The translations under genes and the position numbers were made by a program. Positions 28,652-49,407 of a DNA stretch of 49,407 bases are shown here, piece after piece (the stretch's first letter is position 1; each line of letters begins with the position of its first letter). The stretch lies in assembly GCA_031260285.1 (NCBI GenBank), contig JAIRKD010000101.1, positions 1 to 49,407 of the forward strand. The letters are read 5' to 3'. The notes beneath the pieces were generated by a model. That model was not told where the DNA came from, ran no database searches, and saw only the letters and a list, made by a program, of their open reading frames with translations. Source of the DNA: Gemmatimonadota bacterium (GTDB lineage: Bacteria > Gemmatimonadota > Gemmatimonadetes > Longimicrobiales > Longimicrobiaceae).

Positions 28652-31600
28652 CTACCAGTTCAGGCGCGCACCCAGCGTCCCGTGGACACCGGTCAGTTCA
28701 TGCCGGGCACCTCCCACCGAGTGACGGTAGGTCGCCTCCCCGTACACACTCAGCAGCTGGCTCGCCTTCGCCGTCATCCCCAGACCCCCTTCCAGAGCCG
28801 TTCCACCAGAACGCACCAAGATCGGGTTTTCCCCGTCAAAAGCGATCCCGTCCGCGGCGTTGAACTCATGCCAGACGTTGACCCGCCCATACCTCTGCCA
28901 GAGTGGCCCGTCCGCGCACTTGCAGCTCTGCTGGATCCGCACCCCCAGACGGCCCGTCCACACATCCGCCGGAGTCCACTCCACCGTCGAGCTCTCGGGT
29001 ACGATCCCGGACGGAGCTCCGGTCGAGGGTGACGACGCTCCCGGATACCGGTCCACACGGAAGCCCTGCCAGATCACCTGCGCCTGCGGCTCCACTAGCC
29101 ACATCCCGTTGCTCCCGAGATGGATCGGATACCCTGTCTCCAGCGACGCGGTCAGACCATCCAGATCCGTCTCCAGCCGCGAGCCGGAAGGTGCGGTTGT
29201 CTGGGCTGTCGCTTTCACATTGGACCAGCTCTCCTGCGCCACCGCGTCCAGATACCAGCCGCCCGGCCCGAAATGCGTCCAGTACAGACCCGCGGACGGA
29301 CCCCTCATCTCGATCTCGCCCACTTCGGTATCCAGCTCACCCCGTGCATCACCACGCACCGAGCTGGATCGGAAACCCGTATAGCTGCCCAGCACTCCGA
29401 GGTGGTTCCGGCTTCCCCCATCCGTTGTGTGACGGTAGAGGTCCAGACCCAGCTGGCCACCCCAGAAGTTCCCATCCACCGACGGGTCACCCGCTCCTGT
29501 GAAGCTGTTCGTCTGATGCTCACCCAGCGCGCGAGCCCAGATCCCGTTCAGAAGACTCCGGCTTTCCGCCTGCCCTCGCAGGTTTTCCTCTTCACCCACA
29601 CGCTCGTGCAGCGTCCGAACCGTAAAGAGGCCCAGGCTCCGGCCGATCGCGGGGATCGGCCCGTAGCCCGGTGTTTCATCCCGGAAGATATCCCGGTTGT
29701 TCCGCCGGCTTGTCAGGAACCAGTCCTGGCCGGTGCGCTCCAGCAGGTACTCATAAGCGCCCGCCGTGTACCGCTGGCCACCCAGGCTGAACGCCGTCGG
29801 GGTTGTTGTGCCACCGTTGGTCGTCTCCACCACCCGGATCCCGTTGGTCGTCTGTGCACCCTGACCCCCAACGTTTGTGAAACGCAGCACGGTGCTCCCT
29901 GACGCGTTCCCACCGTTGATCACCAGCTTGTCCGTAGCACTGTTATCATCACCCAGCACGGTGTTCATTTCGATCACGCCGCCGTTGCCCAGGTAGCTCC
30001 CGTTCACAGTCAGCACTGTTCCCGGTGTCGAGGTCGGCGTCGCACTCATCCGGATCGTCCCCGCGTTCACCAGCGAGGCTACCGTCTGGTTGAAGCCTGC
30101 CAGATCCAGTGTACCCGCGCTCCCCACATTGACTGGCGAGTTCGTACCGAAGGCGTTCACCACACCCGCGCGCAGGGTGCCGCCCGCGACGTTGATCCCT
30201 CCACCGTTCAGGTTTGTAACCGAACCGGCCATTGTCAGGAGACCGCTGTTCACGGCGATCGCATCCGGCGCGGTCCCGGCGATCCTGAGATCTCCGGTCA
30301 GTGTCCATTGGGTACCTTCCATCACCAGCGACTCAAAACCAGCTCCGCCGAAGTTGCTGTCCTCGCTGCCTGTTCCCTGCAGGTGAATCGTGTTGCCGTC
30401 CGCAATGGCGGTGAATACATCACCCGTCAGGACAGAACCGGTTGTAAGGTTCAGCCTGTTTCCGGTGCCATTCATCCGTACCGCACTGGAGCCACCGGCG
30501 ATGGTGCCGGCGTTGGTAATGGTGGCATTGCTCAGGACAAAGACACCGTTACCAACACCGGAAGTAATTGACCCCGAATTGTTGATCGCCACAGTACCGG
30601 TACCTGTGATCCCCTGGATGCCATCGGACGCTGCGGCCGTTGTGACGATTATTCCGGTATTGGTCACATCGACAGATCCACTGGTCGAGGTTGCCTGAAT
30701 ACCATGGCTGGATATCCCGTTCGTCGTGATGTCCCCCGCATTTGAAACCGTCGCCTGGCCTGCGGCCGTCACAGAGGTGATGCCATTCGCCTGGTCCCCG
30801 ATTGTGCGGATTCTCGCGGCAGTCGTCAGATCGACAGTGCCATTGAGTGTCGTCGCCACCCGGATCCCTGCATTGGAGAACGCTGTCCCCGAGTTCGTAT
30901 TATCGAGATTGACCTTGACATCCGACCCGATGGTGGCGCTCACGTTGCCACCCCCGAGTGCGCCCTGGGTCAGCGAATTGACAAAAATCCCGTTTCCCCC
31001 ACGGACGTTGACTGTCGCATCAACATCCGTCATCACCAGCGTCGCCGAGCCACTGCGGGATGTCACCTCGATACCGTCCTGGCCATCGGAGTTATCCGAC
31101 AGGTTATTGATCAGCAGGAACCCGCTGATATCCGCGGAGGCATTTCCCGCCCCACGGACGTTAACCAGAATCCCGCCACCATTCGTCGTCGTGATGACGT
31201 TTGTTCCGGTCAGGGTCAGTATACCATTACTCGATCCGATGCCGGCGACCCCGACAACGACGTTGATCCCGATCGAAGCCAGGGTAGTGTTGGTATTGAG
31301 AATTGTCGTATTGTCAACGGTAATATTCGCCCCACCGGGGTTGGGGTTCGCGGCGTTCCCGGAGGTCTGTGCGAGGATGCCATTAAGCGCAGGGCCGGGG
31401 TTATTAACGATGATCGTTGCTCCGGTGACGTTTCCGACAATGGTTGCCGTGGAAGCCAGAGCCGTCTGACATCCCACCTGCCCGGCGGCGGTGTTGGTCG
31501 TATAGGTCCCCGGACCAACCGTGAATGTATTGCACGTGGCTTGCGCGACCCCTGCTGTCGGAACCCAGAGAACGGCCATGACCGCTGCCAGTGGTAATTT

Positions 31601-31702
31601 CCAGAAACAAAAAGATTGCCCTCCTTTTGTGATGGACCGGACTGCGGCGGAGATTTCTGTGGTTCTCTTGACGAGCTTGGTACCCAATGACGTGATTATC
31701 AT
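28652..31702 (-). CDS. Type Va autotransporter, outer-membrane beta-barrel and passenger
   Basis: 1016 residues from ATG 31702. A long signal sequence (cut near GVAQA, about residue 55) precedes a Thr/Asn/Gly/Ala-rich passenger (about 56-700) of beta-helix type: many NSGSI, NAGTI and GNAxI turns, then a PATR-like strand repeat (about 500-560). The C-terminal barrel (about 755-1016) starts near RTLHERVGEE and ends GTLGARLNW, a terminal aromatic as BamA requires. Two Cys occur at the start of the passenger, and a CKC in the barrel. An open GTG at 31750 lies at the predicted transcription start, so the shorter form is used. A near-identical 3' end is at 49291. Confidence 0.88.
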   Translation of the reverse strand: MIITSLGTKLVKRTTEISAAVRSITKGGQSFCFWKLPLAAVMAVLWVPTAGVAQATCNTFTVGPGTYTTNTAAGQVGCQTALASTATIVGNVTGATIIVNNPGPALNGILAQTSGNAANPNPGGANITVDNTTILNTNTTLASIGINVVVGVAGIGSSNGILTLTGTNVITTTNGGGILVNVRGAGNASADISGFLLINNLSDNSDGQDGIEVTSRSGSATLVMTDVDATVNVRGGNGIFVNSLTQGALGGGNVSATIGSDVKVNLDNTNSGTAFSNAGIRVATTLNGTVDLTTAARIRTIGDQANGITSVTAAGQATVSNAGDITTNGISSHGIQATSTSGSVDVTNTGIIVTTAAASDGIQGITGTGTVAINNSGSITSGVGNGVFVLSNATITNAGTIAGGSSAVRMNGTGNRLNLTTGSVLTGDVFTAIADGNTIHLQGTGSEDSNFGGAGFESLVMEGTQWTLTGDLRIAGTAPDAIAVNSGLLTMAGSVTNLNGGGINVAGGTLRAGVVNAFGTNSPVNVGSAGTLDLAGFNQTVASLVNAGTIRMSATPTSTPGTVLTVNGSYLGNGGVIEMNTVLGDDNSATDKLVINGGNASGSTVLRFTNVGGQGAQTTNGIRVVETTNGGTTTPTAFSLGGQRYTAGAYEYLLERTGQDWFLTSRRNNRDIFRDETPGYGPIPAIGRSLGLFTVRTLHERVGEEENLRGQAESRSLLNGIWARALGEHQTNSFTGAGDPSVDGNFWGGQLGLDLYRHTTDGGSRNHLGVLGSYTGFRSSSVRGDARGELDTEVGEIEMRGPSAGLYWTHFGPGGWYLDAVAQESWSNVKATAQTTAPSGSRLETDLDGLTASLETGYPIHLGSNGMWLVEPQAQVIWQGFRVDRYPGASSPSTGAPSGIVPESSTVEWTPADVWTGRLGVRIQQSCKCADGPLWQRYGRVNVWHEFNAADGIAFDGENPILVRSGGTALEGGLGMTAKASQLLSVYGEATYRHSVGGARHELTGVHGTLGARLNW

Positions 31703-31754
31703 GGCTGGCGTGCATGGGAAATTCTGTGCCTCGGGGATTTCCGAGGCCACAGGC

Positions 31755-31783
31755 AGAATAGCTTTCTGTTAACGCCTAATCAA
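31755..31783 (-). promoter_or_regulatory. Promoter of the autotransporter gene
   Basis: On the minus strand TTGATT (31783-31778) and TATTCT (31760-31755) are exactly 17 bases apart. Transcription would start near 31748, leaving about 45 bases before ATG 31702. Confidence 0.55.
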
Positions 31784-38130: not shown

Positions 38131-40407
38131 ATGAAAGTCCGCGACGAATCAGAACCGGAGAATGGAAGCAGGGCGACCCCGCCGCCTGACCTGAAAGGTG
38201 AAACGGCGGAAGTACAGGCCGTCCGCTTCCTCGCATCCCTCAGTGAAGCGCTGAGACCCCTCATCGATCCCGATCAGATGATTGGTCAGGCGGCTGCCAG
38301 GCTTGCTGACCACCTCGGCGCTGCGGGATGTATCTACGCGGAAGCCGTTGCCGGTCTGGACCGGCTGGCGACTCCGCTGGTTACCGGGGTCTCGGGGCCC
38401 TGCTTTGAGCGGGCTTCTTCCGCATCCTCCGCTGACTCCCCTGCCAGCTTCGGGGAAGTGACGCTGGATTATCTGCGGCGGAACAAGGTCTTCGTTCTGG
38501 GTGACGCCGGGACCGACCCGAGGCTGAGCGAAGCAGACAGGGAAACCTTCCATGAACACCGGATCGAGTCCATGATTGCGGCTCCGCTCCGGAAGGATGG
38601 GCAGTTTGCGGCGATGATGGCGGTTTACGAGCCTGAGCCCCGGCAATGGACGGTTGAGGAGGCCGAGCTGCTGTGCGCGGTTGCCGCTCGCTGCTGGGAG
38701 TCGGTGGAGCGGGCCCGGGCGCTTCGGGAACTCGAACAGAGCGAGCGCTGGCTCCGCCTCGCCCAGCGTGCGGGACGGGTCGGGGTGTTTGAGTGGAACC
38801 TCCGGGGTGATCACGTCACCTGGTCACCCGAGCTGGAGCGGCTGTACCGGGTTGAAGAGGGGTCGTTCTCGGGAGGATTCGAGGATTGGTGCGCCTGCCT
38901 TGTTCCGGAGGATGCGGAGAGAGCCCGTCACGAGGTGACCGCGGTGATCTCCGCCGCCCGCCGGGAGTTCGCGTTCGAATTCCGTGCTCTTCTTGAGGAC
39001 GGAACCACGGCCTGGCTCGCCTGCCAGGCGCAGATTTCGTACGACGGGAGCGGCCCGCTCCGGATGATCGGTGTCAATATCGATATTGAAGACCGGAAGC
39101 GGGCGGAGCAGGAGCGGGAACTGCTGCTCAGCCAGACACTTGCGGCGCGCGCGGAGGCGGAGGAAGCCAACCGCGCCAAGTCTGTGTTCCTGGCGAATAT
39201 GAGCCATGAACTCCGGACCCCGATCAACGCCATCTCGGGATATACGGAGCTGATGGCTCTTGGCATTACCGGTCCGGTCACTGAAAAACAGCAGAGCCAT
39301 CTGGAACGCATCCGGGTGAGCAGCGACCATCTGCTCACGCTGGTGAACGAAGTGCTGGATCTCGCCAAGGTGGAGTCGGGCAAGCTCACTGTGGCGCGGG
39401 ATCCACTCGTGCTGCATGATATCGTCCGCGAGACACTCTCCATTCTGGGCGCTGACGCCGGGCACCGGGGTGTGACCATCCGGAACGGAATGGATGAGGC
39501 GGGCGACATCGTCTTCCTTGGTGACCGTGACCGTGTGCGTCAGATTCTCGTGAACCTTGTCTCGAACGCGCTGAAGTTCACGGACGAGGGTGGTCAGGTG
39601 ACTCTCCGGGCCTCTGAATCCAATCCGGAAGTGGCGGGGGCGGAGGTGAAAGGTCGGGGATACTGGCTCCGGATGGATGTGGAGGATACCGGAATCGGGG
39701 TCCCGGAAGAGGAGCTCGGGCGGATCTTCGAGCCGTTTGTGCAGGCGGACAGCGGTTATGCCCGGAGGAGCGAAGGCACCGGTCTGGGCCTCTCGATCAG
39801 CCGGCGCCTCGCCCGACAGATGGGCGGAGATCTGACAGTGGCAAGCGAGGAAGGAAAGGGCTCCCGATTCTCTCTCTGGCTTCCGCTTGCGATGGATGAC
39901 ACCTCCGCAGATTCCGCCGACTGGCGCCCGACAGTGCAGGGAACCCCGGGACTCTCCCTGGTTGGACATGTACTCACCCGGTCAGCAGATGAAATTGTGG
40001 AGCTTTTTGAGGAGCGGCTCCGGGGGGAGAATGGAATGGAACGCGCCCGCGGCCTTGTTTCCCCTCAGCTCAGTGCCCATGTCGCAACTCTTCTTGCCGC
40101 GATTGGTGGAACACTCACAACGCTGGATGAGGCCAACGGCGATTCGGAGCTGATGCGTGATGGTGCTGAGGTTCAACGCGCAATTGCACGCCTTCACGGT
40201 GCACTGCGTGGTCGGCTCGGGTGGACGGAAGAGGATATCCGGCATGAGTTTGAGATCCTTCGCGTCATCACCAGCGAGACGCTCCAGCATCTGCTCCACG
40301 ATAACAGGGGCGCTGTGCTTGATGAAGCGATCGGAGTGGTGACCAGGCTTCTGGAGCAGGTGGAGCGTGACAGCATCCGGGGCAGGGCTCGGGCCCTTCG
40401 GGCATAG
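38131..40407 (+). CDS. Multidomain sensor histidine kinase with C-terminal RsbRD-like domain
   Basis: 758 residues, no membrane helix, so cytoplasmic. In order: GAF domain (about 30-195), PAS domain (about 205-322), HisKA with phospho-acceptor His359 in NMSHELRTPINAISGY, HATPase with N box RQILVNLVSNALKFT, DTGIGVPEEE and GTGLGLSISRRL, then an extra helical domain (about 610-758) with a ERLRGENG...LGWTEEDIRHEFEILR pattern like the RsbRD N-terminal domain of stress sensors. No response regulator is adjacent. AAGGA precedes ATG 38131. Confidence 0.88.
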   Translation: MKVRDESEPENGSRATPPPDLKGETAEVQAVRFLASLSEALRPLIDPDQMIGQAAARLADHLGAAGCIYAEAVAGLDRLATPLVTGVSGPCFERASSASSADSPASFGEVTLDYLRRNKVFVLGDAGTDPRLSEADRETFHEHRIESMIAAPLRKDGQFAAMMAVYEPEPRQWTVEEAELLCAVAARCWESVERARALRELEQSERWLRLAQRAGRVGVFEWNLRGDHVTWSPELERLYRVEEGSFSGGFEDWCACLVPEDAERARHEVTAVISAARREFAFEFRALLEDGTTAWLACQAQISYDGSGPLRMIGVNIDIEDRKRAEQERELLLSQTLAARAEAEEANRAKSVFLANMSHELRTPINAISGYTELMALGITGPVTEKQQSHLERIRVSSDHLLTLVNEVLDLAKVESGKLTVARDPLVLHDIVRETLSILGADAGHRGVTIRNGMDEAGDIVFLGDRDRVRQILVNLVSNALKFTDEGGQVTLRASESNPEVAGAEVKGRGYWLRMDVEDTGIGVPEEELGRIFEPFVQADSGYARRSEGTGLGLSISRRLARQMGGDLTVASEEGKGSRFSLWLPLAMDDTSADSADWRPTVQGTPGLSLVGHVLTRSADEIVELFEERLRGENGMERARGLVSPQLSAHVATLLAAIGGTLTTLDEANGDSELMRDGAEVQRAIARLHGALRGRLGWTEEDIRHEFEILRVITSETLQHLLHDNRGAVLDEAIGVVTRLLEQVERDSIRGRARALRA

Positions 40408-46581: not shown

Positions 46582-47295
46582 ATGATGGCTAATCCGCATA
46601 TCCTTGTTGTAGATGATGAGCCGGATATTTCGGCGCTGCTTGCATACCACCTTGCCCGTGAGGCGTACCGGGTCCGAACCGCCTCAAGCGGTCCGGAGGC
46701 GCTGAAGGCGATGGAGGTGGAAGTGCCGGACCTGGTGCTTCTTGACCTGATGCTGCCGGGGTTCTCGGGGCTGGAGGTGCTGAAGGAGATCCGGCGCCAT
46801 GATTCCTGGCGGAGTGTTCCCGTTATTCTTCTGACCGCCCGGACGGACGAGGTTGACCGGGTGGAAGGGTTCCGGGAAGGTGCGGATGACTATGTTCTGA
46901 AGCCGTTTTCGCCGCGGGAGATTGTGCTGCGGGTGGGGGCGGTCCTCCGGCGGGTGCTTCAGGAGCCACCGGTGAAGAGCGGCGGGAAGATCCTGCGTGT
47001 GGGCCCGTTTGTTCTGGATGTGGAGGGGATGGTTGCGCGTGTGGACGGGCGTGAGATGGACCTCACCCCGACCGAATTCCGGCTTCTGCAGGTGCTGATG
47101 GAACGGCGGGGACGGGTACAGTCCCGCCGGCAGCTCCTCGAATCCGTCTGGGAGGTTACGGCCCGCATCGCGACCAGAACGGTGGATATGCATGTTCAGC
47201 GACTCCGGCTGAAGGCTGGCGATGCCGCGGACTGGATCGAAACCGCCCGGGGTTTCGGCTACCGGTTCCGTCTGGATCCTCCTCCCCCGGCCTGA
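46582..47295 (+). CDS. phoB: Response regulator of the PhoB/OmpR family
   Basis: 237 residues: receiver domain with acidic Asp11/Asp12 and phospho-acceptor Asp55 (LVLLDLMLPG), DYVLKPFSPREIVLRV with the conserved Lys, then a winged-helix DNA-binding domain (about 135-232) with MDLTPTEFRLLQVLMERRGRV and RTVDMHVQRLRLK. It controls phosphate or a related regulon; the name PhoB fits by its pairing with a PhoR-like kinase. A second ATG three bases on is possible. Confidence 0.88.
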   Translation: MMANPHILVVDDEPDISALLAYHLAREAYRVRTASSGPEALKAMEVEVPDLVLLDLMLPGFSGLEVLKEIRRHDSWRSVPVILLTARTDEVDRVEGFREGADDYVLKPFSPREIVLRVGAVLRRVLQEPPVKSGGKILRVGPFVLDVEGMVARVDGREMDLTPTEFRLLQVLMERRGRVQSRRQLLESVWEVTARIATRTVDMHVQRLRLKAGDAADWIETARGFGYRFRLDPPPPA

Positions 47296-47460: not shown

Positions 47461-49200
47461 GTGCGCCTTCGAGCGGACCTCCAGCTTTTTTCCAGCTACC
47501 TCTTCCTGATCGGGACGCTTACTGTCGCAATCAGCCTGGGGGCCGGATACAGCTTTCGCGAACATCTCCTGGGGACCCTCGAAACCGACCTCCTCAGCGA
47601 GCTCAGACTGTCGGGGGTTGCGTACGAAGCGCTCTCTGATACGCCTCCTGACTCGGTTGCGGGACTGCTCGGCGCGGTCACCGGCCATCACATCACGATT
47701 ATCAGTTCTGCCGGAATTGTGATGGGAGAGTCCGGAGTGCCGGCGGATGCACTTCCCGGTGATGACTACGGGAACCGGCCGGAAGTGCGGATGGCTCTTT
47801 CCGAGGGCCGGGGCAGGGCGGTCCGCTTCAATACAGAGTTGAATGAGGATTACCTCTATGTCGCGACCCCGCTGCCGGACGGGTATGTGTTGCGCACGGC
47901 GGTCTCGCTTGTGGATGTAGAGGCCGCGGTCCGTTCTCTTCGCCGCAGGATTCTGGTCAGCGGAAGTGTTGCGCTTCTCGTGGCGGTGTTCTTCTCTCTC
48001 GGCTACAGCATTCTGGTGACCCGGCCGCTGCGGCGCACAGCGGAGGTTGCCCGCTCTCTCGGAGCGGGGGATCTCTCCCGGCGTGTTGTGGGGGTGCACG
48101 ACAATGAGGTCGGTGAGCTGGGTTCCGCACTGAACACGCTGGCGGCCGAGCTTCAGAGACGTCTCGGGCAGCTGGAGGGTGAGCGTGCGGAGATGCAGGC
48201 GCTGATCGACTCGATGTCGGAGGGGGTTGTTGCCTTTGATGCCACCGGGGCGTTACGCCGGTCGAACCCCGCCGCCCGGCAGCTCTTTTCGCTCGGGCCG
48301 AAGCCGGAAGGCATTCCCCCTGAGGCGGTCTCCCGGCGTCCGGAGTTCCTCAGTCTTGTCGGGCGCGCTCTCAAGGGACAGCCGGTTGCTCCCGTTGAGC
48401 TGATGGGGGAAGGGCAGCACCTTCTCGGCAGTGCCCATCCCCTTCCGCGTGGGGGGGCGGTGCTTGTCTTCCTTGATGTTTCCGAACTGCGGCGGCTGGA
48501 AGACGTCCGGCGTGACTTTGTCGCCAACGCTTCTCATGAGCTGAAGACACCTCTCACGGTGCTGCGGGGGTACAGCGAAACGCTGCTTGATCCCGACCTT
48601 CCCCCTGAGCTCGCCCGGAAGTTCATCGAGACCGTGAAGGCAAATGCGGATCGGCTTCAGCGTATTGTGGACGATCTGCTGGATCTGTCACGGATCGAGG
48701 CGGGTGGCTGGCGGGTGCAGCCGGTGTCTGTGGATCTGGAGGATCTTGTCCATGCTGTCCGGGACGCAGGGATTCCCTTTGCAGGGGAGGGTGAGGTTGA
48801 TCTGGCGGTGGATCTCGCCCCGGGGCAGGATAAACTGTTTGCGGATCCGGGAGCGGTACGGCAGATCCTGGTGAACCTTCTGGGTAACGCCTTCCGGTAC
48901 ACTCCTTCTGGAGGCCGGGTCACGGTCCGTACGCGGGCGGTGGGTTCGGGTGGGCGTCGGAGTTCTGTGCTGGAAGCCCGGTTGCCTCGTGATCAGTCAT
49001 GGACGGTTGTGGAGGTCTCGGATACGGGTTCGGGGATCGGTCGTGCGCACCTCGCCCGCATCTTCGAGCGTTTCTATCGTGTTGATCCTGCACGTTCCCG
49101 GGAGGCGGGGGGGATCAGACGGGGAGGGGTGAAGCCTGTCATAATTACCGCAATTGTGGCAATCCCTTGTGACAGTCGCTTATGGCAGTCGCTATGGTGA
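47461..49200 (+). pseudogene. phoR: PhoR-like sensor histidine kinase, 3' end lost
   Basis: 579 residues. Membrane helices at about 12-30 and 163-186 flank a periplasmic sensor, then HAMP (about 187-238), PAS (about 243-345), HisKA with His359 in ANASHELKTPL and HATPase with NLLGNAFRYTP and DTGSGIGRAHL. After FERFYRVDPARSREAGG (residue about 551, base about 49113) the usual GTGLGLAIVKH...HGG is replaced by 28 unrelated residues. So the G2 box and last helices are missing and ATP binding is probably lost. GTG start at 47461; weak ribosome-binding site. Confidence 0.85.
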
Positions 49201-49234
49201 AGCAGGCACCGATCCATCCAGGACCGATCAAAAT

Positions 49235-49267
49235 AGGAGGGGAAGCAGCTGCTTCCCCTCCTTTTTT
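49235..49267 (+). terminator. Perfect-palindrome terminator
   Basis: A 28-base perfect palindrome (49235-49262; arms AGGAGGGGAAGCAG and its complement) followed by five further T residues (49263-49267). On the plus strand it ends the broken phoR transcript; on the minus strand it can end the autotransporter gene. Confidence 0.9.
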
Positions 49268-49290
49268 GATCTCCGTTGGATTCGCTCCGC

Positions 49291-49407
49291 CTACCAGTTC
49301 AGGCGGGCGCCCAGCGTTCCATGGACACCGGTCAGTTCATGCCGGGCACCGCCGACCGAGTGACGGTAGGTCGCCTCGCCATACACGCTCAGCAGACGGC
49401 TTGCCTT
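49291..49407 (-). CDS. C-terminal end of a second autotransporter
   Basis: 38 codons plus a TAG stop, running off the window. The peptide KASRLLSVYGEATYRHSVGG... to RLNW differs from the end of the autotransporter at 28652 at only one position (Arg for Gln). The DNA differs at about 12 of 117 bases, nearly all silent. Similarity stops at the stop codon: the downstream DNA is unrelated. This is the barrel end of a paralogue or a recombined copy. Confidence 0.85.
   Translation of the reverse strand, partial: KASRLLSVYGEATYRHSVGGARHELTGVHGTLGARLNW

Follow-up and report, generated by a model that had tools for sequence, protein, structure and literature searches.

The window, 49,407 nucleotides long, is the entire contig C53 of a 110-contig, 2.76 Mb Longimicrobiaceae (Gemmatimonadota) draft, and it ends at 49407 because the contig ends there. 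Its last three kilobases hold a phoB-phoR pair that faces the end of an autotransporter gene:

46582-47295, plus strand: phoB-type response regulator, intact (Pfam Response_reg and Trans_reg_C, each matched over nearly its full length)
47461-49113, plus strand: orthologous part of phoR, with HAMP, PAS, HisKA and HATPase_c to the F box (orthologue identity, Pfam)
49107-49113, plus strand: run of seven G's at the break, surrounded by a G-quadruplex-like stretch (49100-49129)
49114-49200, plus strand: foreign end of the phoR frame (27-28 codons plus the stop), with no kinase similarity
49130-49132, plus strand: TGA in the next frame (reading GSDGEG and stop), the native stop of phoR in the case of a local deletion or collapse
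49235-49262, both strands: 12-pair stem with T runs on both strands, a strong two-way terminator between the convergent genes (2 such stems found, 0.4 expected)
49289-49407, minus strand: autotransporter gene end, identical to C70:1-119 (the paralogue on C103 has a Pfam Autotransporter domain), with the contig end at a graph branch

The open frame of phoR spans 47461-49200 (stop codon 49198-49200) and encodes 579 amino acids, the foreign tail of 27-28 amino acids included. The intact phoB directly upstream and the Pfam domains identify it as a phoR orthologue, and as far as the F box it has the same domains as the PhoR-type sensor kinases of the Longimicrobiaceae (HAMP-PAS-HisKA-HATPase_c). 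Its HisKA domain scores 81.6 bits over profile positions 2-66 of 66 and carries the phospho-accepting histidine (SHELKTP); the N, G1 (DTGSGI) and F (FERFYR) boxes are retained. The best family orthologues are 52-60% identical up to query residue 552-555, where the alignments end even though the orthologue frames run on; the named relatives that the kinase matches are Gemmatimonadota and Longimicrobium drafts. The match is lost abruptly after residue ~551 (EAGG): the window phoR continues with IRRGGVKPVIITAIVAIPCDSRLWQSLW, whereas orthologue tails read EEGGTGLGLAIVKHLVEAHGG...IRFTLP (also given as TGLGLAIVKHLVEAHGG...IRFTLP), and GGIRRGG stands where orthologues have GGTGLGL. HATPase_c accordingly covers profile positions 2-72 of 111; in two relatives the match extends over 2-110 and 2-109. 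The missing part comprises the G2 box together with the final third of the domain (positions 73-111), both of which the PhoR-type kinases of the family possess, and at least 40 final codons are absent, with the break 294 bases before the contig end. The window phoR therefore has neither the G2 box (GTGLGL) nor the complete HATPase_c of a functional HisKA-type kinase. In this respect the orthologue alignments and Pfam agree with a reading made earlier from the sequence only, which had seen phoR broken in its ATP-binding domain with an abrupt change at about base 49113. A second histidine kinase in the window (39172-39885, in a 761 amino acid frame) has its ATP-domain end and provides a control for assembled kinase ends.

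We asked whether the shortened end recurs in relatives, a case that the sequence-only reading had named as counting against a rearrangement. Among the 28 phoR orthologues whose sequence continues past the break site, to which the count is confined, none is shortened and all 28 carry the full tail with GTGLGL. A selected, functional short PhoR acting as a kinase-dead regulator, for example phosphatase-only, is thus very improbable: an open frame followed by a terminator, and nothing beyond these, speaks for it, but no relative is shortened and the tail resembles nothing that was searched. We consider it just as far-fetched that a natural PhoR without an ATP lid has become fixed and still works, for instance by regulating PhoB as a phosphatase only or in dependence on a partner.

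The junction sits directly 3' of the seven-G run at 49107-49113, as had been proposed. A simple frameshift at this run is excluded, since no frame after it leads into a kinase tail and none restores GTGLGL, which bears out the earlier observation. The G-quadruplex-like stretch at 49100-49129 spans the junction; in its 49 kb, the window has only seven such starts on the plus strand. A general claim that G runs break this assembly fails, because phoR contains another seven-G run (48451-48457) that the assembly crosses intact, and at least two relatives read through the run at the break site itself. In a congener, however, the same site coincides with a contig end. Its phoR, which like that of the window adjoins phoB and a BON-domain gene, lies on a contig of a separate assembly (G001, C233; L029:1-20) that stops 12 bases past the same seven-G run, where the run falls in G2-box codons. 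By our estimate, a contig end would fall by chance within 15 bases of a given site in the congener with a probability of ~0.6% (~960 ends, 5 Mb), in a comparison that comprises one genome.

The other side of the junction leads into a repeat. The autotransporter stop codon, at ~49290 on the minus strand, lies 175-180 bases on, in keeping with the distance of about 180 bases reported before. The final 119 bases of the window equal the first 119 of C70, read in the opposite direction, and the two contigs diverge two bases past the autotransporter stop codon, while C70 and C103 remain common for ~100 bases more. C36 and C41 also share exactly 119 bases. Because this overlap, learned from the starts of 40 other contigs with contig ends sampled, recurs at exactly the same length, the end of C53 is a branch point in a k=119 graph. 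The genome has at least 10 similar autotransporter C-terminal ends, 71 to 100% identical over about 100-120 bases and with mostly differing flanks; members of the family lie in the window (28655-31768 and 49289-49407) and on C31, C59, C8, C30, C44, C70 and C103. This family is one cause of contig breaks in the genome.

Between junction and repeat lies a flank of 175 bases (49114-49288). It is single-copy in the genome, and neither 20 other family genomes nor phage and plasmid collections gave a significant match. The absence of matches in those collections speaks against a phage, plasmid or mobile-element origin of the flank, and no mobile element was found at the phoR junction. Nor does the flank contain a known RNA, as its Rfam matches all score far below the gathering scores and fall nearly all on the terminator palindrome; without the palindrome, it folds no better than shuffled sequences. 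The junction words occur on no other contig of the genome. An assembly chimera should show one side of the junction in another context of the assembly, but neither side was found in one: the flank and the junction words are single-copy, and the phoR tail is absent.

This uniqueness bears on the possibility that a real rearrangement replaced the 3' end of phoR with the flank of a convergent autotransporter gene. The junction is unbranched, its flank is unique, the phoR tail is missing from the genome, and the truncated frame has its own stop followed by a terminator. Conversely, the junction lacks a mobile element, and a true pseudogene less than 300 bases from a contig end would need chance. 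Recombination between autotransporter copies is disfavored as well: identity to C70 and C103 stops at the stop codon, ~175 bases from the junction, so that the repeat does not produce the junction. We therefore regard a rearrangement as rather unlikely. Of the three causes offered by the sequence-only reading, an assembly join is best supported and a deletion is possible, whereas insertion of an autotransporter block by copy recombination is disfavored.

The rearrangement would have a biochemical consequence. G2-box mutants of EnvZ, ArcB, EvgS and BarA fail to autophosphorylate with ATP (PMC4734776). As the whole G2 box is absent from the window phoR, its protein should, if the truncation is real, by analogy be kinase-dead. 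With no G2 box and with the final strands of its ATP domain gone, it would not phosphorylate itself and PhoB would depend on other donors, an outcome that we hold to be as doubtful as the rearrangement.

A search of the genome, 98% complete by score, with a composite of the last 59 residues of the orthologues revealed many kinases but no orphan phoR end on any contig; apart from phoR itself, every match belongs to a longer kinase frame. A loss of phoU or pst genes together with the kinase end, which the sequence-only reading had thought probable, did not hold. phoU is intact at C20:1812-2378, and pstC, pstA and pstB are present on C37 and C20, with pstA and pstB following pstC on C20. Moreover, phoU does not adjoin phoR in relatives: it lies ~12 kb (G007), 15 kb (G008) and 23 kb (G005) downstream, and on a different contig in G001 and G013. 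pstC is itself split by a contig end, into C37:14314-15186 and C20:3-98, with an overlap of 17 bases. Unique coding sequence is thus broken elsewhere in the draft, too.

Weighing these observations, we consider an assembly fault at the contig tip the most likely cause of the phoR break, with somewhat better than even confidence. We infer that reads failed at the G-rich stretch and that a false join followed. Read support would have been lost where G-rich sequence encodes the beginning of the G2 box. At the seven-G run the assembler would then have departed from the phoR path, by a jump to sequence that is not adjacent or by omission of a short segment, and 294 bases later it would have stopped at the autotransporter branch, so that the final ~294 bases of C53 may not be the true continuation of phoR. 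Several findings argue for such a fault: C53, 49 kb long and one of 110 contigs in the draft, has the break 294 bases short of its end; that end is a k=119 branch; the congener contig stops just past the same G run, a weak spot common to both assemblies; the draft also breaks inside the unique coding sequence of pstC; phoB, pst and phoU are present; and all readable orthologues are full length. Other findings argue against it. The flank is single-copy, which means that the bin lacks the true second context expected of a chimeric join, and the junction words lie on no other contig. The genome, scored as 98% complete, does not contain the phoR tail. A k=119 graph requires support at every step over the junction, and both the run at 48451-48457 and the same-site run in at least two relatives were read through. 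The window resembles terminal misjoins and breaks of short-read drafts in having its break near a contig end, at a G run and close to a multi-copy repeat, but differs from such misjoins in that its flank was not found twice.

Second to an assembly fault ranks a real 3' truncation, by rearrangement or by a small local deletion, which we judge somewhat less than evenly probable. In its deletion form, itself not very likely, ~120 bases or more would have been lost inside phoR between the G-rich words that flank the site (GGGAGGCGGGGGGG and GACGGGGAGGGG). What follows the junction would in that case be the genuine end of phoR (GSDGEG and a stop), with its native two-way terminator and the convergent autotransporter gene behind it, a self-consistent arrangement. 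Orthologues commonly end in short tails that are acidic or contain glycine (FTLPAGED and FTLPAED are examples), and GSDGEG resembles several of them, although six residues are too few for a test and none of the relatives has a flank to compare with it. Had the assembly falsely collapsed this stretch, the result would look identical, which makes the two inseparable from sequence alone.

With an assembly fault as the preferred reading, phoR is probably complete in the organism, and at most it would be an ordinary broken gene. The break of a gene at a homopolymer run, within a few hundred bases of where a contig ends, should therefore not be taken as gene loss. If the truncation is real, it would be an ordinary loss of function, leaving a bacterium without the usual sensor of its phosphate regulon that has nonetheless kept phoB, pst and phoU.
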